Of a DNA stretch of 64,000 nt, positions 22,368-37,365 are shown one piece after another. The first letter of the stretch is position 1. Each line of letters opens with the position of its first letter. A program made the position numbers and the translations under genes. The notes beneath the pieces are model-generated. The model saw nothing but the letters and a program-made list of their open reading frames with translations, had not been told where the DNA came from and did no database searches. The DNA is from Diadema setosum (lineage: Eukaryota; Echinodermata; Echinoidea; Diadematoida; Diadematidae), in the NCBI RefSeq assembly GCF_964275005.1, contig NC_092699.1, positions 15,848,149 through 15,912,148 of the forward strand, in the 5' to 3' direction.

Positions 22368-23130
22368 TCATTTTTTTATTTTTTGGAGACATTTGGGGAT
22401 GAGGCGGAAAGGAGGGAATGCGTAGAAATACAGATCACCCCAATTCAGAGTGAATGCATTCACTGAAACCGCATCTGGGTCTTGCAGCCACGTAACATTA
22501 GCAGGCAGTTGCTTATTGAGTTTGGACGCAAAGAGATCAATTTGGGGAGTACCACATTTTTTTGTGATATCTGTAAAAACTTTCTTATTCAGCATCCAGT
22601 CTGTTCTGTCAGTAAAATGACGAGATCTCCTGTCTGCTTCTGTATAATTGTCACGACCAGGTAAATAGGCTGCTGTGATCCAGATGTTCCTTTCCTTACA
22701 CCAAACCCAAATGTCTCGTGCTGCCCTGTCACAGGCTTGAGATTTAATGCCTCCCATATTGTTCAGGTAGGCTACAGCTGTTATGTTATCAGTTCTAATG
22801 AGCACATGCGTATCATGCAGGTGGCCACAAAACGATTTCAAACCAAGCCCTGCAGCCAATATTTCAAGATAGTTGATTTCATTGTTTTGAGCACGCACTA
22901 TATCCTGATCATCCCATCTACAGCCAGTTTCACAGCTTAAATCAGTGGTACCCCATCCTTGCCCACTGGCGTCTCAGTACGGAACTCTAAAGCTGGTCGA
23001 TCTCGACTCATTAGTGCCAACTGGCAGTAAATGTTATTGAACCACCAAGCTAACTCGTTTTTAGAAGCTTCAAATTCATAGGCCTATCAAAATGCCCTTT
23101 GCTTGATTTCAGTGCAAGAATTTTGTCTCT
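22368..23130 (-). pseudogene. DIRS RNase H region (fossil)
   Basis: Recognisable blocks are NEINYLEILAAGLGLKSF, THVLIRTDNITAVAYLNNMG, WITAAYLPGRDNYTEADRRS, then CGTPQIDLFASKLNKQLP. The E-I-x-A, R-T-D-N-x-T-A-V-A-Y and AYLPG-x-x-N blocks are typical of DIRS-type RNase H followed by the LFAS-x-x-N link. The element at 23135 interrupts it on its N-terminal side. Confidence 0.8.
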
Positions 23131-23433
23131 TTCTTATATATCGTCGACGACCATCCGAACCGTCGTATATGTCAAAATTCAGTAAATTTTTCGAATTTCA
23201 GATTTTGCCGTTTTAAGAAAGCCCAGCACACACTCTTTCTACTCACAAAATTTTGAAACCGGATTTTGTGTTTTTAACAGAGAAATTTGATATACGTCAT
23301 TTTGCCTGAACGCGAATTGGCTAAAGGCGTTCATCCGAACCGACGTATCGCTATACGTCGGTTCGGGTGGCCGCGAAACGTCGAGTCGCGTTCAGAGAAG
23401 GTGTCGTATCGCCAGAACTGGCAGAAGCAGACG

Positions 23434-23465
23434 ATGGAGCGCCAACCAGACCCTCCCCAGGACCG
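23434..23465 (+). CDS. Element gene, exon 1 (first 11 codons)
   Basis: The ATG at 23434 in a good context (GACGATGG) encodes MERQPDPPQDR, with the last codon split before GTGAGT at 23466 (phase 2). Joining to the acceptor at 24740 completes the Arg codon and continues in an open frame, which supports the junction. The transcription start is presumably within the left terminal region. Confidence 0.5.
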
Positions 23466-24740
23466 GTGAGTTTTATAATGAGTAGCTATGAAATCATGCA
23501 ATTTCAAATAAAATGAACATACCCAAGCAAGTTCTATCCGTAAGATTGTTACTTGTCAAGATAAATATGCAGATTGTCGTGGGTTTTTCAAAATATTTCG
23601 TCGCGTTGGTAGGTGTAGTCCTGTGTATAGATAAACATGTGGGTACAAAGGCAGGGATACTCTAGTAGGGTTTAAATCATAGACCCTTTTGTAGTCTAGA
23701 AAACAACGTTCACAATGATCTCGTTGAATTGGCTTTATGTGCTTATGGTGCATATATGGACCTCATACGTAGTGGGTGTGGGCAATGCCAAACTGTTAAC
23801 ACTTCAGGGTGAATTGTTTGGGAATTACCACACAAAAAGTACGAGATTACTAAGACGAGTCCAACATTCACAAGTTACGTATAGTCACAGCCAACAATTT
23901 AGAGCCGCTAATCGCTGGTTCATCATTTAGTGTAGGGCCCTAGAGTTCTGATGATAGGTTCTCCTTACTTATAACATGTATTTATGGCCGATTGAGCCCC
24001 AAGCTTGCAAACACACACAAAGAAAAACACCCAAATCTGAGTGTAATGTATCTCATGTGAATTTGCCAATGTACACTGTAAGCCAAGGATCTAGTAGTAG
24101 TATTAAAGTAGGGCCTATACTGGCTATAGTGAAAATGAATGATTTTACCAACGTCTGTAAATTTATCTGATACTAGGATTCCTAGTACTCTAGGAGTAGG
24201 ATTAGATTATGCTGGCCCTTAAATACATGTGTGTTGTTCAGAGATCTAGCCAACTGCAAATGCTTTGTACCGTACCGTTACTGAGTATGAATTTTTATCG
24301 CATGCATTTTTATGTCGCTGTGAGTGCCAAGTCTCCATAATATTGAAATCACTGCAATGAAGGCTTTAGTGTGTTAAGAGGCCAGAGAGCAGTACTTGAG
24401 TGAGCCCCTCCTGTGATATCTTATAGTAATACGCTGATGTTCCACTACAATTAAAATACATGTATATAATTGAGGTCTAAATGCAATGTTCCAATTGTCA
24501 GATCTAGCCTTGCTAGGCTATAGGTGCCCACACATTCTAGAGAGTAGTTTTGCAGTACCATATGCACAGGGAATCTTCGCCCTCTATCCGTCTATAATAT
24601 GAGTTGAATTGTACTTTGGCATTTTTATGATCAATGTAAAAATAGACCACTAAATAGGCTTGCGGTAAAACATTTCTGCTAGAATTAAAAATATTTTTTA
24701 ATACACTTGTAGTGAATGTTTTGGTTTTTGTTTGTTACAG

Positions 24741-25037
24741 GTCTTTGTCCTCAGAGAAACCAACAGATGTTGAAGTCCTTTGGGACAAAGATAGTACGAG
24801 GAATTCCATAGCTGTTGATCAGCTGAAATTCAGGAAGGGCATGCTTCCCACGACTTGGAGTTTGTGTGTCAATGCGATGGCACAGGAAACTGTGGAAAGG
24901 CACAATTACTGCTGTGTATGGGGGAGAGAATTCTGAAAGCAGTAGCGATGATGGAAACACAAGCACCGCAGACAGCAGTGACGAAGATGATACTTCTGAT
25001 TATGGCGATGATGACAACATTTACCTGGCGAAATTAG
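24741..25037 (+). CDS. Element gene, exon 2 (SH3-fold-like part and acidic tail, frameshifted)
   Basis: After the TTTGTTACAG acceptor the frame reads SLSSEKPTDVEVLWDKD and then NSIAVDQLKFRKGMLP. Protein-like sequence then moves to the next frame: LGVCVSMRWHRKLWKGTITA, followed by VYGGEN and a Ser/Asp/Glu-rich stretch ending NIYLAKLG before GTAAGA. A one- or two-base indel near 24850 therefore breaks this copy. The V-x-V-x-W ... G-x-V-x-x-x-W-x-x-x-x-W-K-G-T-I-x-x-V pattern resembles Tudor or other SH3-fold chromatin modules, but that is a guess from shape. Exit phase is 1, matching the repeated exons that follow. Confidence 0.5.
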
Positions 25038-25885
25038 GTAAGATTGTGCGCACACAAATGAATACATACTTGTAGTAAAAAGTATGGACAGTATACAGTG
25101 TGTGTGTTTATTCAATGCCTCTAATAACTTCGTAACTGTGCTGTAATGTTAGAAGTAGCTTACTCCATACTGTATGAATGCATTTAAGTAGTGCCTGGTA
25201 TACGTGTATTACATTTTCATGGTGTCAACTCATATACAGCACAACCTGATATACCATGTTTTCACAATAAAGACATGAGCGTGTACTTATGTAGCCTTAA
25301 TTCATGTTCATTTGTGTTATGCCTACAAAAAAAAAAAAAAAAACTTTAATGAACAGATTAGACCTTCTATCAGTATCTTTTCTTTTTCTGTGTCACATCT
25401 GCTTGTATTTTGTGTTTCAGTCACTTTTTCCAATTTCATAATGCCCTTGTTTTGCTGCAAAACTGAAGATCTATGTGTGTAACCAGCAAGGCTGAGTTTA
25501 AAAAATTTTGACTTCCTGACCCCATTCCGGTGCCCTATGCGTAACAAAAGAGTTTGTAAGCCTATCAGCAAATGCTATTTTTGTGCCTCACTTCTAATGA
25601 TGTTTTTGTATTCTTCATAAGTACATGCAATTGACTGTGGAAAGAGGATGCATGTACCGCTTGACTGCTTTTGCATTTAATGCAGATCACCAGTCTGTTT
25701 GATCTCTGCTGATGGGCAAAAATAAAAACTCTTTTTTTGTGGACATTTACATAGGGCTATCTGAAAAATGTGGTATTCAAAGGTTAATCTTGATAAAAAC
25801 AAAAATAGATTCAACTTTTAAAAAATTAAGATAGTAACAGTGAAAAATATATGCACTATGTGTATTTTGTTTTCCTCATTTATAG

Positions 25886-26005
25886 TTGCCATAAAAAAGG
25901 ACATCAGCTGCATTCCAGAGATACCAAAGCTAGCATTGAACAGTGAAGGAGCACCGTTAGATCCATCCCAGCAGAATGTCAGCTCTGACCAACTTCTTCT
26001 CAATG
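25886..26005 (+). CDS. Element gene, repeated exon R1
   Basis: Forty codons, phase 1 both ends, TTTATAG acceptor and GTGAGT donor. It encodes VAIKKDISCIPEIPKLAL, then NSEGAPLDPSQQNVSSDQLL and LNG. It belongs to the series R1-R6 sharing I-x-K-D-x-x-C-x-x-x-I-P ... S-Q-Q-N-V-S-S-D-Q-L. No known domain; Pro, Ser and Gln content suggests a flexible segment. Confidence 0.55.
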
Positions 26006-26238
26006 GTGAGTGTTTGTAAAGCCTTAATCTTGTTCAAAAACCCAAGTAGATATGGTTGATTCAATCTTGTTGGAATATCAATTAGTAATCTGGATTAAAT
26101 TATGCTATTGCTGTCATATAATAGCAAATAAAAAGAATGACATCAACTATACACAAGCAAAGAATGTAGCATCCTGGCTAACATGTACCAGTATTATTTG
26201 CAGTTGTCAGAGGTGGGTCAAGGAATTCTGTAAATTGG

Positions 26239-26252
26239 GGGGGGGGGGGGGG
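26239..26252. repeat. G-run in the unit intron
   Basis: A guanine tract placed between AATTCTGTAAATT and ACCACACGCACGTC. Comparable tracts occupy the same place at about 27367-27385, 28219-28242, 28814-28825 and 30167-30178. Confidence 0.6.
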
Positions 26253-26465
26253 ACCACACGCACGTCTGCCAGTTTTTCTCTGTTTCTTTTTTGTTTAAAA
26301 AAAGGGCATCTTAAACCCCATGTGTCCCCGCATGGATCCACCATGGGTTGTAATCTGGATGACAAAGAAATTATAAAGTCAATCTTTCAATAAATATGAT
26401 GGAAACAAATTAAATGTTTATGCACCATGTGTATTTGTTTTTCTTTTTGTTTTCTTCATTTCCAG

Positions 26466-26579
26466 TTGGCATCACCAAGGACATGGACTGCATTCAAGGG
26501 ATACCAATGCCACAATTGAACAACGAAGCACCCGCAGTTTCATCCCAGCAAAATGTCAGCTCTGACCAACTTGTCACTG
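26466..26579 (+). CDS. Element gene, repeated exon R2
   Basis: Thirty-eight codons, phase 1 both ends. VGITKDMDCIQGIPMPQL, then NNEAPAVSSQQNVSSDQLVT and G. Open and in frame. R2, R4, R5 and R6 share the TKDMDC or TKNMDR variant, R1 and R3 the KKDISC variant. R1 and R2 with their introns therefore form a two-exon unit that was duplicated as a block. Confidence 0.55.
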
Positions 26580-27875
26580 GTGAGTGCTTGTAAAGCCTTA
26601 AAGGTAGGGAATCCCATTTGCATGCCCTAAATGAAGAGTTGTATAAATACAGTGGTATGTTGAAGAGAGTATCATTTTAGAAACTCCCATAAAGTTTTGA
26701 AAGTGGAAGGTAACATTTAGTACATTTTTAGTGACTGTTAGATTTTGAATTGAATTTTTTTTTCGGGGCTCACCGTAAATTCCAGTACATTACTAGGCTA
26801 CTTTTGCAGACCCATGCATTGCATGTGTGTCCATCATGTATATTTGTGAAGAAATTTCATCAAAACTTACAAACATTTCTATATACATTCTTGCCACACA
26901 CTCTATATGTTATTACATCAGCTCTTATACTTTTAGATTTGTGTTTATAGATTCAGAAGACAGCAACAAAAAGGCTTAAGTGTGGCTGACACACAGAACT
27001 ACTGAGTAGTTGAGTTTTGTGCATTATTCAAATTGTAGATAACTGTTGACTTCCAAATTTCTCAGCAGTGGCCTAAACAAGTCCCCTGAGGTTCATATTT
27101 AATGTTTTCTACATTTTGGGAGGTCTGTAAAAGGTATCCCCTACCTTTAATCTTGTTGGGAAACCCGACCAGATATAGCTGCATTAATCTTGTTGGAATA
27201 TCCATTAGTAATTAAGATGAAATGATGCTATTGCTGTCTTATACACTTTAATAGCAATTAAAAAGGATCACATAAACTACACACAAGCAAAGAGTGTAGT
27301 ATCCCGGCTACAATGTACCAGTGTTTTTTTCAGTTGTCAGGGGTGGGTCCAGGAATTCTATGAAGTTGGGGGGGGGGGGGGGGGGACCACATGCATGTCC
27401 TCCAGTTTTTCTGTTCATTTCTTTTGTTTAAAAAAAAGACAAAAATAAAGGGTGTCTTACACCTGATGTGCTCCACATGAATCAACCACTGGTTGCAATC
27501 TGGATGTCATGTTATCCTTCTTTTCATGTTGTAGCAAATGGCTAACACACAACTGGAGAATGTAGCTTGTCTGCCAATTGTACCTGGACCTTCCAAGCAG
27601 AGTGATATTTAATCTATGAGCAATTCTCAAATGAGGATGCATGTACCGTTTGACTACTTTCACATTAATGCAGATCACCAATCTGTCCGATCTCTGCTGA
27701 TGGGCAAAAAATACCCTCTTGTTTGTGGACATTTAAATAGGGCTTTCTGAAAATTGTGGTATTAAAAGGTTAATCTTAATATTTAAAAAGAAGATAAATT
27801 CAATCTTAAAAAAAAATCACATAGAAACAATAAAATAAACATAGGCTATGTTTATTTTGTTTTCCTCATTTACAG

Positions 27876-27992
27876 TTGGCATCAAAAAAGACATCAGCTG
27901 CCTTCCTGAGATACCAATGCTAGTATTGAACAATGAAGGAGCACTGTCAGATTCACCCCAGCAGAATGTCAGCTCTGACCAACTTCTCAATG
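27876..27992 (+). CDS. Element gene, repeated exon R3
   Basis: Thirty-nine codons, phase 1 both ends, TTTACAG acceptor and GTGAGT donor. VGIKKDISCLPEIPMLVL, then NNEGALSDSPQQNVSSDQLL and NG. Open; closest to R1. Confidence 0.55.
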
Positions 27993-28459
27993 GTGAGTGT
28001 TAGTACCGCCTTAAACCTTGTTGGGAAACCCAACCAGATATTGCTGAATCAATCTTGTTGGAATATCAATTACCGGTAGTAATCCAGATGAAATGATGCT
28101 ATTGTTGCTATATAATAGCAAATAAAAAGAATGACATCAACTATACACAAGCATAGAATGAAGCACCCTGGCTACCTTGTACCAGTATTATTTGCAGTTG
28201 TCAAGGAATTCTGCAAATGGGGGGGGGGGGGGGGGGGGGGGGACCACACGCACGTCCTCCAGTTTTTCTCTGTTCATTTTTTTGTTTTAAAAAAAAAGGC
28301 ATCTTAAACCCCATGTGTCCCCGCATGGATCCACCATGGGTTGTAATCTTGATGGCAAAGAAATGATAAAGTCAATCTTCCAATAAATATGATTTTACAA
28401 AATGTAGTACTTATGCACCATGTGTATCTTGTTTTTCTTTTTGTTTTCTTCATTTCCAG

Positions 28460-28583
28460 TTGGCATCACCAAGGACATGGACTGCATTCATGAGATACCA
28501 ATACACACTTTGTACCAGAATGAACAACGAAGCACCATCAGATCCATCCCAGCAAAATGTCAGCCCGTACCAACTTCTCACTG
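28460..28583 (+). pseudogene. Element gene, repeated exon R4 (out of frame)
   Basis: The splice sites are intact (TTTCCAG and GTGAGT) but the exon is 124 bases against 114 in R2. An insertion after ATACCAATAC plus a missing T in GAATTGAAC shift the frame, so it no longer encodes the SQQNVSSDQL end. Confidence 0.5.
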
Positions 28584-29312
28584 GTGAGTGTTTGCAAAGC
28601 CTTAATCTTGTTGGGAAATCCAACCAGATATTGCTGCATTAATCTTGTTGGAATATCCATTGGTAATTAAGATTAAATGATGCTGTCTTATACACTTTAA
28701 TAGCAATTAAAAAGGATGACATAAACTACACACAAGCAAAGAATGTAGCATCCTGGCTACCATGTACCAGTGTTTGTGTTGTCAGGGGTGGGTCCAGGAA
28801 TTCTGTGAAAGTTGGGGGGGGGGGGACCACACGCACGTCCTCCAGTTTTTCTGTTTATTTCTTTTGTTAAAAAAAGACAAAAATAAAGGGTATCTTACAC
28901 CTGATGTGCCCCACATGAATCAACCACTGGTTGCAATCTGGATGTCATGTTATCCTTCTTGTCATATTGTACCAAATGGCTAACACACAACTGGAGAATG
29001 TAGCTTGTCTGCCAATTGTACCTGGACCTTCCAAGCAGAGTGATAATTTATGAGCAATTTTCAAATGAGGATGCATGTACGTTTGACTGCTTTGCATTGA
29101 TGCAGATCACCAATCTGTCCGATCTCTGCTGGGCGAAAAAAAAAAATCTTGTTTGTGGACATTTACAAAGGGCTACCTGAAAATTGTGCTATTAAAAGGT
29201 TAATCTTAGTAAAAGAAATTATAAAGTCAATCTTTCAATAAATATGATGGAAACAAATAAAATGTTTGTGCACCATGTGTATTTGTTTTTCTTTTTGTTT
29301 CTTCATTTCCAG

Positions 29313-29425
29313 TTGGCATCACCAAGGATATGGACTGCATTCAAGAGATACCAATGCTAGTATTGAACAATGAAGCACCGTCAGATCCATCCCGCAGAAT
29401 TTCATCTCTGACCAACTTCTCACTG
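29313..29425 (+). pseudogene. Element gene, repeated exon R5 (one base short)
   Basis: Intact acceptor and donor, but 113 bases. The CATCCCGCAGAATTTC stretch lacks a base present in R2 and R6 (CATCCCAGCAAAATG), shifting the frame past that point. The first part reads VGITKDMDCIQEIPMLVL. Confidence 0.5.
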
Positions 29426-29447
29426 GTGAGTGTTTGTAAAGCACTTA

Positions 29448-29955
29448 ACTCTTTATGTGCCACGGTGGAAACCCCCTGTGTGCCACATTATTCTGAGACA
29501 GGAAGGTAGTCATGCTTTGAGAAAGAATTCTGTTTTTCCAATTCCTATAACTTTTACAAATTTTTGTTAAGATGGGCATAATAGCTGGCAAAGGAATGCC
29601 AAGCTTTGTTTCGATATAAATTGTATGACGAATCTTTTTTCAATTTTTCTGTTGAATGACCATGGCACTTGCTACATTACTGTAAAGGCATGACTTTTGC
29701 ACATAAAACTGTAAGAGTAACTTAGAATGTACGAGCAATTCTATTTGGGAACACCGCTTGTATAGTCAATCACCACATAGAATGCAAGTCGTACAGAGAG
29801 GAACAAAAGCACGAGAAACGCTTTCATTGTGCTGCGGGATTAGCAGTGATTAGTGATCTATCGATTGGTTTTGGCGGCTTTGTTTGTTGAGCAGAATATG
29901 CGAAGTTGGCACGCCGTCGACTGAGTCCGACGTGCGAACGTGGCACATAAAGAGT
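29448..29955. mobile_element. MITE, ACTCTTTATGTGCCACG termini
   Basis: Inverted ends ACTCTTTATGTGCCACG and CGTGGCACATAAAGAGT, inserted in the intron after R5. The homologous introns after R1-R4 lack it and read straight through (GTAAAGCCTTAATCTTG). Non-coding, 508 bp. Confidence 0.7.
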
Positions 29956-30415
29956 CAATCTAATCGGGAAACCCAACCAGATATTGCTGACTCAATCTTG
30001 TTGGAATAACCATTAGTAATCCGGAATAAATGATGCTATTGCTGTCATATGATGACAAATAAAAAGGATGATATCAACTATACACAAGCATAGAATGTAG
30101 CATCCTTCTTTTTTTTTTTTTTGCAGTTGTCGGGGGTGGGTCCAGGAATTCTGTAAAGTGTGTGTGTGGGGGGGGGGGACCACACGCACGTCCTCCAGTT
30201 TATTCTGTTGATTTTTTGTTCAAAAAAACAAAAACAATAAGGGCATCTTACACCCCATATGTCCACGCATGGATCCACCATGAGTTGTAAGCTGGATGAC
30301 ATCTTGTCCTTTCAAAGAAATGATAAATTCAGTCTTTTAATAAATATGATGAAACAAATGTAATATTTATGCACCATGTGTATCTTGTTTTCTTTTTTGT
30401 TTTCTTCATTTCCAG

Positions 30416-30669
30416 TTGGCATCACCAAGAACATGGACCGCATTCATGAGATACCAATACCAGAATTGAACAACGAAGCACCATCAGATCCATCCCAGCA
30501 AAATGTCAGCTCTGACCAACTTCTCACTAATTATTGCTTGTCTATGGTGCCTACAGTTGTTTGTGCATGCAAAAGCAATTTAGTCTATGTATTCAAATTT
30601 TTGATAATTTATCACTCCGCACTATCTCCCCACCACTATTCGCCATGTTATGATTTGTCTATTCTATAG
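30416..30669 (+). CDS. Element gene, last repeated exon R6 reading to a stop
   Basis: The first 38 codons are repeat-like (VGITKNMDRIHEIPIPEL ... SSDQLLT). Where the other copies have the donor GGTGAGTG, this one has AATTATTG, so the frame runs on to a stop at 30667-30669. Either this is the natural terminal exon or a donor has been lost. AATAAA-type signals occur downstream (for example near 31293). Confidence 0.45.
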
Positions 30670-32440
30670 CTATTAAATATTCTATGATATCATAATAAGC
30701 TTTGATATTTCTTTAACAATAATTGTCATATTTTTTCATGTGAGAGATGTACATGTAACAGCTTTATTCCTCCTTCCAAATGTGATTTGATTTCTGAAGG
30801 ACCGTTGCGTAGATATTACTGTTATATCGAAATGAAAGTACAATCACAAACATGCACATAATAACAACTCAAATCATACAATGTACTTTTTTTTCAGCCC
30901 TAAGACCTGAGTTATTAGAGATTCACTAGTATTAGGAGGAAGTTGGCCTTCTGCTTTAAGCCATTTCCATCTGATGAATGTTTCAGAATGTTTTTCAATA
31001 TAAACTGTATTGTGTACAATTTTCTCATGTTAAAATCGGTTTAACAATTGATTTAGATCAATATCTATTAAACCAAAGACATTTTGATTTGTACATTTAA
31101 AAATGTTCGAGGAAATGTAACCATTGTATTAAAGGACATGATCATTATCACTGAATTTAAATCAATATTTATTTTACCACAGACATCTTGATCATTCTGT
31201 AAATTCAAAAATTTTTAATGAAATTTTACCATTGTATTTAAGGACATGTTCAATCCTTTTCTTTTCTTTTTGGATGTGAGATATGGATTTTGAAATAAAT
31301 ATTGCTGCATTTTAATGCAGCCTTGTCTCAAGACTCACTTTCTTTGTTTTGTTTTGTTTTTCTCTTATATGTACTGTGATCTCATTATCATGAGGAAATC
31401 ATAATATTATGCACACTAAAATGTCAGCATATATAATTGGAAGTGAAATGATATTCATAGTACTACTTGAATATCATTTAAGTCTGTAGGACAATACACC
31501 TTTTATTATTTGTGTGAACAAGTACAATCCATGTTTGTGTGTGTGGATGTTTCTGCGTAGAAAATCAATTTGCATCTGTTTCAGAGTCCTGAACGTATAT
31601 ATATATATATGTATACTCGTATATATATAAAAAACAATAATGTGAGACAGACGTGTGGCTAAGTAAATTTTTTGCTTGTTATTTCTGATGAGCAAGCTGA
31701 TAATTGAGTTTTACCCAACTGAATGATCATGAATTATGTCTGCCATGCATGTGAGCTGTAAAAGAAAATCTTTATTCATGGGTTAAAATGTACAGTATTC
31801 ATCATGGCAGCTTAGAAAGAATGAAAGTTAGGTCATTACAGTCATGATTGCGGCATGAATTATCACAAAGAATAGCAAGGCTTGGATGTGTGATTTTTGT
31901 TTTTGTTTACAGTATTGGAGAGTGGGAGAGATGGTTAAAGCGTGGCAAGGGAAAGAGAAGAGGTGGAGGAGAGCAGTGAGAAGATGAAATGAGAGGAAAA
32001 AGAAGAGGCAGGCTGCAATGAAAAAACAATAATTCCATAGGCCCCACCTCTTTCACAATACATGTATAACCACTTTTTGCGTGATACAGTAATTAGATAC
32101 AAACTGATCAAAGATAATGTGTCCTTAACATGGAGTGGGTTTTTTGATTGTTTGTCTGTTTGTTTTTTACATCAAAGGAACTCTCGTCTGATGCCTGAAG
32201 CGTAATTCATGTCAAAAAACAAAACAAAACAAAACAAACAAAAAATCTGCACAGGAACCTCCCCCTCCCCTACCAGTGTTTCATCATGCATGCCAAAACT
32301 AGACCTTGGACGTATTTGTACTACATCTTATGAAATTATGACACAGAATAGTTGCATTCACACAACAATATGCGCGAAATCACTCGTTTTACAGATAAAT
32401 ACCACGTAACCATGCATATCGCATAGATGCGCGTGTTATA
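30670..32440. other. 3' part of the 9.7-kb element, non-coding
   Basis: AT-rich DNA with a TA microsatellite (about 31595-31630), a repeated phrase around 31055-31240 (ATCAATATTTATT-like and GACATNTTGAT, two copies) and A/C runs near 32215-32240. No gene recognised. Confidence 0.4.
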
Positions 32441-32446
32441 AGAATA

Positions 32447-32570
32447 GGATACGTCGGTTCGGAGATCGCACTTTCGGTACGCGCGTTCAGCAAACTGACG
32501 TATCACCCCGATACGTCAGTTCGGATGACCGCGCGTACTGAGAGTGCGATCTCCGAACCGTCGTATACCT
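32447..32570. repeat. Palindrome of the element's subterminal motif
   Basis: ATACGTCGGTTCGGAGATCG (32450) pairs with CGATCTCCGAACCGTCGTAT (about 32566). TACGCGCGTTCA pairs with its mirror inside. The same CGTCGGTTCGG words make up the outer termini and the left subterminal patch. Confidence 0.6.
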
Positions 32571-32839
32571 GTTTTTCGACTCTTCCTGTGCGGAGGCCTT
32601 TCTTTTTGTGAACGTAGCATTAGTTTTATTCATACATGATTTTAAATACATATATTATACGAATCGTCTGGAATTTGCCTTTCTTTTCATATAAAAAGAC
32701 CGGGAATAAAAGCAAGAAATTTCTTTACACTAGACTTCAAAGGACCCCCAAACTTCAAACGCGTTTTTCTCGAAAACGTGTTCTCGCACACCGCTGACAG
32801 ATACGACGGTTCGGATGGTCGCCGACGATATATACTATA

Positions 32840-33735
32840 GGCTACGATAGAAGAGGGGGCCATTATTGAATTGCAAGGAAAGTAGCAATCAGTTTCCCAA
32901 TGACCTGCGCCACCTGCCTGATAGTAGGGTTCTGTTTCCCTAGTAATTCCTCACATACTGCCCTGATATTTTGACATTTCTCATGAGGGAGCGTTATGGT
33001 CATGCTTTCCGAATCCAAGATAAGCCCCAAGAATTAGGAGCCGTTGCTGAAGAACTAGGATAGATTTCTCTGAATGAATAACAAAACCAAGATCAGAGAG
33101 CAGTTCTGTGGTTGCTTGCACCGCTTTAGTGCTTGTGATTCAGTTTCACCAATTATGAGTGTCATCTAAATACCCCACAACCAGGTGGCCTGCCTGTCTC
33201 AGTTTTGAGAACACCGGCTTCATAAGTTGGTGAAGAGTCTATAAGGCGCTGTACTGCATGAGGCCATTGGGGAGTACCCTAAATTGCCAACATTTCCCTT
33301 GCCAGACAAATCCCAAATACTTGCGATGTGAGGGGTGAATAGGGACAGAGTAATTGGCATCTCGAAGGTTGACTGAGGCAAGGTAACAACCAAGGGTTGT
33401 AGCTGTATGGATGTTATCCATTATGAAATGCTGTACATTCAGACTGTCATTTAGGTCCGATAAATCTAAGATCAGGCGTATGTCCCCATTTTTCTTTGGG
33501 CGTGTAAAAATATTGGACACAAATTCTCCTGCCACATGTTGGCATTCTTCGATGACGCCTTTCTCGCCCATTTTCGAATTTCAATGTCAATCTTGCTCTC
33601 CTCAGCATTACCCACTCTGTAGTGGTAAGGCGGTTTACCTCTGCGAGGTGGGATATTCGCCTCTTGAAATTCAAGTTTGTAACCGCTAATTGCATCAAGT
33701 ACTAGGTGTTTAAAAAAAACAAACGTTTCCCCACT
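32840..33735 (-). pseudogene. DIRS reverse transcriptase region (fossil)
   Basis: Legible blocks include FVSNIFTRPKKNGDIRLILD, LSDLNDSLNVQHFIMDNIHT, HRKYLGFVWQGKCWQFRVLP and a following NGL. These are the conserved N-terminal RT motifs (P-K-K-x-G-x-x-R-L-I-L-D-L; F-x-W-x-G-x-x-W-x-F-x-x-L-P-x-G-L) as in DIRS elements. Broken; the insertion at 23135-32836 separates it from the RNase H part. Confidence 0.8.
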
Positions 33736-34870
33736 TTTCCAATTCATAAACTATATATCAGATAACACTGTCATTGATATGAGTAATAGCTGAATAGTGT
33801 ACAATTTGGTCGGAGGTGGTTTGAATATGAAAGCATAAATCAGATTCATGAAATCCATGATTAATTTCACAGTTAGGTTCCAGATTTTGCTCTATTTTCA
33901 ACCCTCTGTACAAAATTTCACTTTGCACAGGGGTCAATGGGTGTGCATGGGAGTGTGTGGTTAACACCCTGACAATGGTCCTAAACAATGGTTAGGGTTT
34001 GAATGCTTCATTATTTATTCATGAGAAATTCCCTTATCACAACTAGTCTTTATTCAGCCTCTGGCAGTATCTGTGTAAAGTCAAACGCCTACCGATACTG
34101 TCGTTGGGTCTCGACAGTGCTCTCCCTACTTCTGAAAAACGAAATTACAATGAATACCTTCTGTTCTATCGTAAGCATGGTGACAGGAAGCAAAGAAAAT
34201 CAATTAGAGTATACACTTGTGTAAATGGAGCCTTAAATAAATCTACTGTGAAACATATTGCCCCAATGATAAATGCTGCTGAACTCTTTACCAAAAATGA
34301 TTTCTTTTTATCAAAAGGCGAAAAATTTGTCAGACTATTTAATTAGTAGACAGTTGTATCAAAATGAGGAACTTTAGATCATTTATGCTTATTTATATCC
34401 CAAATTTAGTGATATGTGAAGCAAAAATTGAAAATGATTGCCAGCTGGAATGGAATGTGGTGTTTGCAATCACATGGAAACATGTGCTTCCTTTTTCCAT
34501 GTGCATGCATTTTACCCTTTACCGTGCATGAATCCAGACTAGCAGTGCCCAGGGCAATCCACATGAATTTTGATTAAGCATTCATGTGCCTGGGAGCTAG
34601 AGACTGACGCCTAGTCAACAGGTGGTTAAGGCATGTCCATTGTTCAGGGCCATTGTCAGCGCACACTCACATACACATCATTGGTTCCTGTGCAAGGTTC
34701 AATTTTTGTACAGAGGGTTAAAATTTGACCAAACTCTGAAACCTTATTTAAAAATCAATCTTAGATTTAATGAAACTGATTCATGCTTTCACATTCAAAT
34801 CACCTCCAACCAAATTGTACACTATTCAGCTATTATTTATATCAATGACAGTTTTATCGGATGAATAGTT
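33735..34870. mobile_element. 1.1-kb inverted-repeat element inside the DIRS copy
   Basis: The ~260-bp left arm (33735-34000) is mirrored by the right arm (34615-34870). Paired words include AATAGCTGAATAGTGTACAA with TTGTACACTATTCAGCTATT, and CCCTCTGTACAAAAT with its complement. The middle (34104-34346) has an 80-codon frame without a known domain. It lies between the RT and gag-like regions of the DIRS copy. Confidence 0.6.
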
Positions 34871-35562: not shown

Positions 35563-37365
35563 ATATGGCAAGCCGTTTGTGTAATAAGTCGATAAATACT
35601 GTTTTTAATAAGTCGATAAAAACAGTGTTTATCAACTGATAAACAGAGTTTTTCTTTGATAAACTGAGTTTATCAACTGATAAACACAGTTTTCTGATAA
35701 ACTGTGTTTATCAACGATAAACTCTGTTTATCAATTGATAAACAGAGTTTATAAACTGAGTTTATCACTTGATAAACTGAGTTTATCAGAAAAACAGTGT
35801 TTATCAGTTGATTAACACAGTTTATCAAAGAAAAAAATGTGTTTATCAGTTGATAAACACTGTTTATCAGTGGAAAACAGTGTTTATCAACTGATAAACA
35901 GAGTTTTTCTTTGATGAATTGAGTTTATCAACTGATAAACACAGTTTTCTGATAAACTGTGTTTATCAACGATAAACTCTGTTTATCAATTGATAAACAG
36001 AGTTTATAAACTGAGTTTATCACTTGATAAACTGAGTTTATCAGAAAAACAGTGTTTATCAGTTGATTAACACAGTTTATCAAAGAAAAAAATGTGTTTA
36101 TCAGTTGATAAACACTGTTTATCAGTGGAAAACAGTGTTTATCAACTGATAAACAGAGTTTTTCTTTGATGAATTGAGTTTATCAACTGATAAACACAGT
36201 TTTTCTGATAAACTGTGTTTATCAGCGATAAACTCTTTATCAAGTGATAAACTGAGTTTATCACTTGATAAACTGAGTTTATCAGAAAAACAGTGTTTAT
36301 CAGTTGATAAACACAGTTTATCAAAGAAAAACTGTTTATCAGTTGATAAACACTGTTTTTCATTGATAAACAGAGTTTATCAGTGAAAAACAGAGTTTAT
36401 CTGTTGATAAACACAGTTTTTCTGATAAACTCAGTTTATCAGTTGATAAACAGAGTTTTTCACTTTTGATAAGCAGAGTTATTTATCTCTCCACGAGAGG
36501 GCGTTTTCACTGTTTGATATGTTCTGCTCGTTGTTGTAATAATCGCAGCGCTATGGCGCTAGGCGCTTGCAATGTACGTATCACTGCGCTAGTTAGCTAA
36601 CCGGGCTGGGCCGGGTGTGTTGTGTCTGTAATTCTGGCAACGTTTTCGGTAATCGGTATCTGGTATATGTCTGGTCAGGATAGGAGTGCGTGAGAATACA
36701 CACTTGCACATGTACATGTACATGTAGGCCTACGTATTAACAGAGCAGACGTATTAAATGCTGCTATCTAGCGCCCACTACCGAGAAGGTTTGAACTCTG
36801 CTTTTCTCTGATAAACTGAGTTAATCAAGTGATAAACAGAGTTTATCAGAAAAACTGTGTTTATCAGTTGATAAACTCAGTTTATCACTGATAAACAGAG
36901 TTTATCGGAAAAACTGTGTTTATCAGTTGATAAACACAGTTTTCTGATAAACTCTGTTTTTCTCTGATAAACAGAGTTTTTCTTGAAAAACAATGTTTAT
37001 CAGTTGATAAACAGAGTTTTTCTGATAAACAGAGTTTTTCTGATAAACTGTGTTTATCACTTGATAAACAGTGTTTATCAACTGATAAACACAGTTTTTT
37101 CTGATAAACTCTGTTTATCACTTGATAAACTGAGTTTATCAACTGATAAACAGTTTTTCCGATAAACTGTTTATCACTTGATAAACTCAGTTTTTCTTGA
37201 AAAACAATGTTTATCAGCTGATAAACACAGTTTTTCTGATAAACTGTGTTTATCAGTTGATAAACTCAGTTTATCAAGTGATAAACAGAGTTTGTCAGTG
37301 AAAAACAGAGTTTATCAGTGAAAAACAGAGTTTATCGACTTTTTACACAAACGGCTTGCCATATG
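35563..37365. mobile_element. TU-like fold-back element built of GATAAAC/GTTTATC repeats
   Basis: The ends are inverted: ATATGGCAAGCCGTTTGTG with TAA at left and TTACACAAACGGCTTGCCAT at right. Trinucleotide CAG flanks both sides (35560-35562 and 37366-37368). About 85% of the interior is short palindromic units (TGATAAACTGAGTTTATCA and variants, ~20-25 bp), in two large blocks (35590-36475 and 36800-37340). Between them is a unique ~310-bp centre (36480-36790). Long arms of short tandem units around a unique centre is the architecture published for sea urchin TU elements; membership is inference. No coding sequence. Confidence 0.65.
35590..36475. repeat. Left palindromic tandem block
   Basis: It contains a near-identical direct duplication of about 245 bp: 35635-35870 repeats at 35885-36120 and partly again to 36370. 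It is made of GATAAAC and GTTTATC half-sites, so any frame here reads as repeated SLSTDK or VYQLIN words with no protein meaning. Confidence 0.65.

Follow-up and report, generated by a model that had tools for sequence, protein, structure and literature searches.

A 9.7-kb non-autonomous DNA transposon of Diadema setosum most likely retains the 5′ part of its family's own transposase gene

The stretch of DNA analysed here, referred to as the window, comprises 64,000 nucleotides of the Diadema setosum genome (contig NC_092699.1, positions 15,848,149 to 15,912,148 of the forward strand, assembly GCF_964275005.1) and contains a 9686-bp non-autonomous element at window positions 23142–32827 (plus strand), delimited by its ends and by the duplication of its target site. 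The element begins with CGTCG, ends with CGACG and is bounded by 27-bp terminal inverted repeats (TIRs) at positions 23142–23168 (plus strand) and 32801–32827 (minus strand), identified by sequence reading and a genome search and differing from each other at one base in this copy. The tetranucleotide ATAT flanks it on both sides (positions 23138–23141 and 32828–32831). An earlier interpretation made from the letters alone (the sequence-only reading) had proposed a mobile element at 23135–32836; the element is real, although its exact ends are 23142 and 32827, and that reading was right that the whole of it moved as one unit.

When one mismatch is permitted, the window contains seven CGTCGGTTCGG-like sites; each lies no more than about 400 bp from an end of the element, and two fall inside the TIRs. 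A number as high as seven was reached in none of 100 shuffles, which bears out the subterminal arrays reported previously. The motif scan places inverted CGTCGGTTCGG motifs at positions 23335–23366 on the left and a motif cluster at 32452–32563 on the right, and these subterminal repeats are putative transposase binding sites. The element sits, as had been proposed, within another transposon, because the flanks joined across the insertion read as the interrupted reverse transcriptase (RT)/RNase H region of a retroelement, named by eye. The RT- and RNase H-like readings lie on the minus strand (positions 22368–23141 and 32832–33800) of what is presumably a DIRS-like element; a Pfam search with the two flank pieces gave nothing at E ≤ 0.01.

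The element contains the remnant of a spliced gene on the plus strand. Exon 1 (positions 23434–23465) begins with the ATG at 23434 and comprises 10 codons and 2 further nt, and exon 2 (positions 24741–25037), whose frame is broken, encodes a putative Tudor-like module, the fold being taken from the corresponding exon of a relative described below, and an acidic tail. Six related exons follow, designated R1–R6, which by sequence reading are in phase 1 at both sides: R1 (positions 25886–26005, 120 nt), R2 (26466–26579, 114 nt), R3 (27876–27992, 117 nt), R4 (28460–28583, 124 nt), R5 (29313–29425, 113 nt) and R6 (30416–30528). The window exons have AG acceptors and five of the six R exons have a GTGAGT donor, while R6 has no donor and continues to a stop. 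The sequence-only reading had described this ATG exon, exon 2 and six R exons, and rightly regarded R4 and R5 as out of frame and the copy as decayed, with a genuine frameshift in exon 2. The R exons are not due to chance, since a strict splice-signal pattern finds 74 of them in the 21 copies read. Searches by sequence against solved structures gave nothing better than E 0.24 for exon 2, and the Pfam matches obtained with the element were confined to the acidic tail and stayed below threshold (Cwf_Cwc_15 and CENP-B_dimeris). The intron after R5 carries a 506-bp insertion (positions 29449–29954); its ends are inverted CTCTTTATG, its flanks read TTAA/TCAA, and it is a TTAA-type miniature inverted-repeat transposable element (MITE) that is not present in copy L010.

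Searches of the genome (912.7 Mb in 102 contigs) revealed a family of about 40 near-identical copies. Exon 2 as a query matched 40 of 40 candidates, such counts being lower bounds; 79 of the 100 matches to the TIR with up to three mismatches were exact, and a control pattern, the TIR read backwards, had no match genome-wide. The window copy and 20 others (L009–L028) were read at full length. They are mostly 8.5–8.9 kb long, diverge from the majority sequence by 1.9–3.6% and all contain exon 2, and no copy without these exons, the finding that would have spoken against the sequence-only reading, was encountered among them. A perfect 4-bp duplication was present in all 20 copies with both flanks readable (ATAT in 8, AATT in 5, ATTT in 4, ACAT, ATCT and TATT in one each); Ns on one side of L026 make the duplication undecidable there. 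Seventeen of the 20 conform to AWWT, compared with 4.0% of the 4-mers in the window. Substitutions per site among copies were 0.020–0.022 at the ends, 0.030 in exon 2, 0.039 in exon 1, 0.043–0.050 in introns, and 0.042–0.050 when introns are taken together with the 3′ sequence. The lower divergence of the ends is expected if they are needed in cis, while the rates are no proof of selection on the protein because the frame is broken.

The break in the gene is common to the family. Reading from the ATG through exons 1 and 2 meets a stop in all 21 copies, at codons 22–76 in 20 of them and, in L028, at the final codon, 110; L018 is the one copy without the ATG. Because of its net length, exon 2 ends in the wrong phase in 20 of the 21 copies, and 33 of the 74 R exons have a length not divisible by three, at least one such exon occurring in 18 copies. 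R2 is 112 nt long in 12 copies and R5 is 113 nt long in 15; as these breaks are shared, the damage most likely preceded the spread of the family. With a DUF7869 protein as the query (P0001, described below), no transposase similarity was detected in the window or in any of the copies read, and no stop-free stretch longer than 159 aa was present in the eight copies scanned.

At three places the family ends lie 36–48 kb apart (C4:40223767–40268075, C12:220037–256497 and C3:46681792–46729395). These copies probably carry large insertions or satellite growth; as candidates for giant autonomous elements, two were sampled over 2.4 kb each, giving nothing assignable; one sample was minisatellite-like, and neither resembled a transposase at E ≤ 1. 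Three TIR look-alikes were likewise rejected as autonomous partners: L030, at roughly 0.8 kb, is a MITE, L031 starts with a fusion of the two ends of about 1 kb, and the fetched part of L029, whose far end was not reached, has no transposase. Neither transposase nor exon 2 was found by tblastn in any of the three.

Two diverged siblings still hold decayed pieces of the catalytic part that the main family lacks. L032 is 7372 bp long with an AATT duplication; its ends are 83% and 90% identical to those of the family and its internal pieces 72–83%. Exon 2 and just one R exon are present in it, and the part from there to the right end includes a decayed transposase-like stretch (tblastn E 9.5e-14; E 9.3e-11 with six stops in the genome search). 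L034, whose matching blocks share 86–95% identity with L032, also has one R exon, and a similar stretch lies on the same strand some 13 kb away from its left end.

When the sibling exon 2 was used as a query, all 38 candidates matched: 35 of them belong to the main family, two are the siblings and one is a place on C1, the last matching weakly (E 1.85). This place belongs to a complete element of 12,756 bp with CGTCAGCG... ends, a 31-bp TIR with one mismatch and an ATAT duplication. Its TIR agrees with that of the window element at 20 of 27 positions, and its right end aligns with that of the family over 64 bp with a score of 51, compared with a maximum of 27 in 200 shuffles. In the gene of the C1 relative the Tudor-like exon comes first, then the tandem phase-1 exons and finally the catalytic exon. 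By sequence reading, the tandem exons are six copies in phase 1, spaced by 541–713 bp and unlike the R exon, and the catalytic exon lies inside a 661-codon open stretch. With the C1 Tudor-like exon as the query, homology to the window family is significant, the best E being 9.0e-8 (38% identity over 71 aa).

The protein of the C1 catalytic exon, P0001, matches the Pfam domain of unknown function PF25273 (DUF7869) with 30.7 bits against a cut-off of 26; the comparison with P0001 finds no such domain in the window element. Five of six other transposases of this genome reach or exceed the cut-off, L039 being equal to it as printed, and L041 falls below it. The catalytic exon of the relatives is RNase H-like, and D295, D372, E413 and D415 are invariant in seven sequences. 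Together with modelling, these features lead us to predict that the DUF7869 protein is a transposase with an RNase H/DDE-type fold; a search by sequence found no solved structure for P0001 at E ≤ 1. Among the scored candidates of the genome search, a Tudor-like exon lies 2–9 kb upstream, on the same strand, of 8 of the 13 strong DUF7869 matches. One transposase locus on C15 is preceded by three tandem Tudor-like matches about 1.25 kb apart (C15:8809761, 8811016 and 8812260), where the first module itself seems to have been duplicated. Another, L038 (C10:4752600–4757400), has an open frame of 1412 codons in which a 22-aa repeat, present at least 20 times, precedes DUF7869; close to the N-terminus there is also a Transp_Tc5_C match, below threshold (E 0.0014).

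The Tudor-like exon is also present in other repeats. The 150 matches to the C1 exon, sorted by eye, comprise 31 in the window family, 14 beside transposase matches, two other sets of 91 and 10, and four belonging to none of these. The set of 91 is a high-copy one with a 75-aa-type frame, two members of which (L046, C6:5963700–5965700, and L047, C15:30072300–30074300) are 97% identical over 1.95 kb with the exon open in both. Transposase similarity was absent from the 2 kb examined in these two, beyond which the repeat ends lie. Members of the set of 10 (C9:24141600, C2:30504399 and eight others) are 57–63% identical to the C1 Tudor-like exon and each carries at least one stop. No member of either set is within 12 kb of a listed transposase match.

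Overall, the data very probably describe a non-autonomous cut-and-paste DNA transposon derived from an autonomous one with Tudor-like, linker and DUF7869 catalytic exons. The ancestral gene would have united a Tudor-like exon, acidic tail included, with phase-1 linker exons that had been amplified and with a large exon for the catalytic part (DUF7869, RNase H/DDE-type fold); this catalytic exon would have been lost from the family of about 40 copies through internal deletion, the R array growing in the window's lineage while this happened. The derivative still has the ends and subterminal repeats, so that a transposase from another source could bind at the ends, excise the element and insert it at AT-rich 4-bp targets; the movement of the copies most likely relied on such an enzyme from relatives. 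The Tudor-like module may bind chromatin. It is also conceivable, although rather unlikely, that this module reads chromatin and steers insertion, that the linker grows by exon or peptide duplication, and that several non-autonomous families keep an N-terminal product acting in trans.

Several observations weigh against derivation from a DUF7869 transposon. The comparison of left ends between the C1 relative and the family is marginal (score 29 compared with a shuffled maximum of 25), the similarity between exon 2 of the window copy itself and the C1 exon is weak (E 0.035), and plain Foldseek searches with the models of exon 2 and of the catalytic exon gave no match at E ≤ 0.001. The L032 remnant is only 51% identical over 57 aa to the closest open catalytic exon; the right end of L034 was not found, and we infer that its catalytic piece belongs to the same element. 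Five of the 13 transposase loci have no Tudor-like match upstream. Coverage extends to 21 of the approximately 40 copies and to 67 of the 154 candidates of the transposase search. The genome searches found no intact transposase with TIRs closely matching those of the family that could have served as the mobiliser of the copies.

Spliced exons with introns within a non-autonomous element could also come from a cellular Tudor-domain gene, as in Pack-type (gene-capturing) elements, which are non-autonomous and contain spliced exon remains, and the modelled Tudor-like fold does resemble chromatin proteins. We consider such a capture, one of the two origins left open by the sequence-only reading, very unlikely. 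Apart from four left over, the matches to the C1 exon belong to this family, to the positions upstream of DUF7869 exons or to the sets of 91 and 10; the siblings retain catalytic wreckage in the expected order, and the complete C1 relative has the exon within its transposase gene. The best exon-2 relatives outside the family are, in this one genome, that complete transposon and sites upstream of transposase exons. Of the two origins, a DNA transposon's protein holds and a captured host gene is not supported, exon-2 relatives lying in the family, near transposases and in repeats, with few unassigned single matches. Unlike in Pack-type elements, the exons most likely belong to the transposon itself and form, judging from sequence, the 5′ part of the family's transposase gene.

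The R/Tudor gene is the sole gene seen in the copies read, and its product might be taken for a new kind of mobilising enzyme without a DDE domain. This is extremely improbable given the stop between the ATG and the end of exon 2 in every copy read, the out-of-frame R exons in most of them, and the separate catalytic exon of the relatives. The sequence-only reading was incomplete in speaking of "no known transposase": the copies read are a derivative without the catalytic exon, so the gap is a loss rather than new chemistry, the transposase being visible in the C1 relative and as wreckage in the two siblings. Somewhat less remote, although still improbable, is retention of the 5′ part for a trans-acting product (a repressor or an end-binding partner) or for a requirement of the 5′ sequence in cis: the sets of 91 and 10 carry the Tudor-like exon away from listed transposase matches, and it is open in both of the near-identical copies of the larger set. 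The frame is nevertheless broken in every window-family copy read, and the other repeats, whose ends were not reached, are not established as transposons of this kind.

Sola enzymes are of the DDD type. According to the sections of PMC3627910 available to us, Sola2 elements have 4-bp AWWT target duplications (ATAT, AAAT, ATTT) and short TIRs of 12, 13 and 21 bp, and include families with most of the transposase deleted; the accessible part of a preprint on Holothuria glaberrima places Sola-2 at the long end of DNA-transposon lengths (PMC13228809). The window family (AWWT in 17 of 20, TIRs of 27 bp, most of the transposase missing), L032 (AATT) and the C1 relative (ATAT, 31 bp) resemble them, whereas the Sola2 section of PMC3627910 that we saw makes no mention of either a Tudor-like exon or amplified linker exons. 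The window family and the C1 relative most likely work like, and are, Sola2-type elements, an assignment made by target duplications and TIRs.

Elsewhere in the window, positions 35619–37336 contain a dense palindromic minisatellite with AAACAGAGTTTATCA-like units.

A literature search found nothing on DUF7869, the original Sola description lying outside the comparison, and the sources retrieved in part for transposases with tandem exon duplication do not deal with this architecture. The combination of a Tudor-like module with amplified linker exons in a transposase and the predicted transposase role of DUF7869 appear to be new, as do the additional repeats in which the Tudor-like exon alone is retained. 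Taken together, our results link DUF7869, a Pfam domain without known function, with a TIR transposon that is complete and whose core is predicted to be of the DDE type, show a transposase architecture with a Tudor-like module and amplified linker exons, and provide a concrete case of about 40 copies that spread, most likely without an enzyme of their own, while keeping a recognisable half of their gene.

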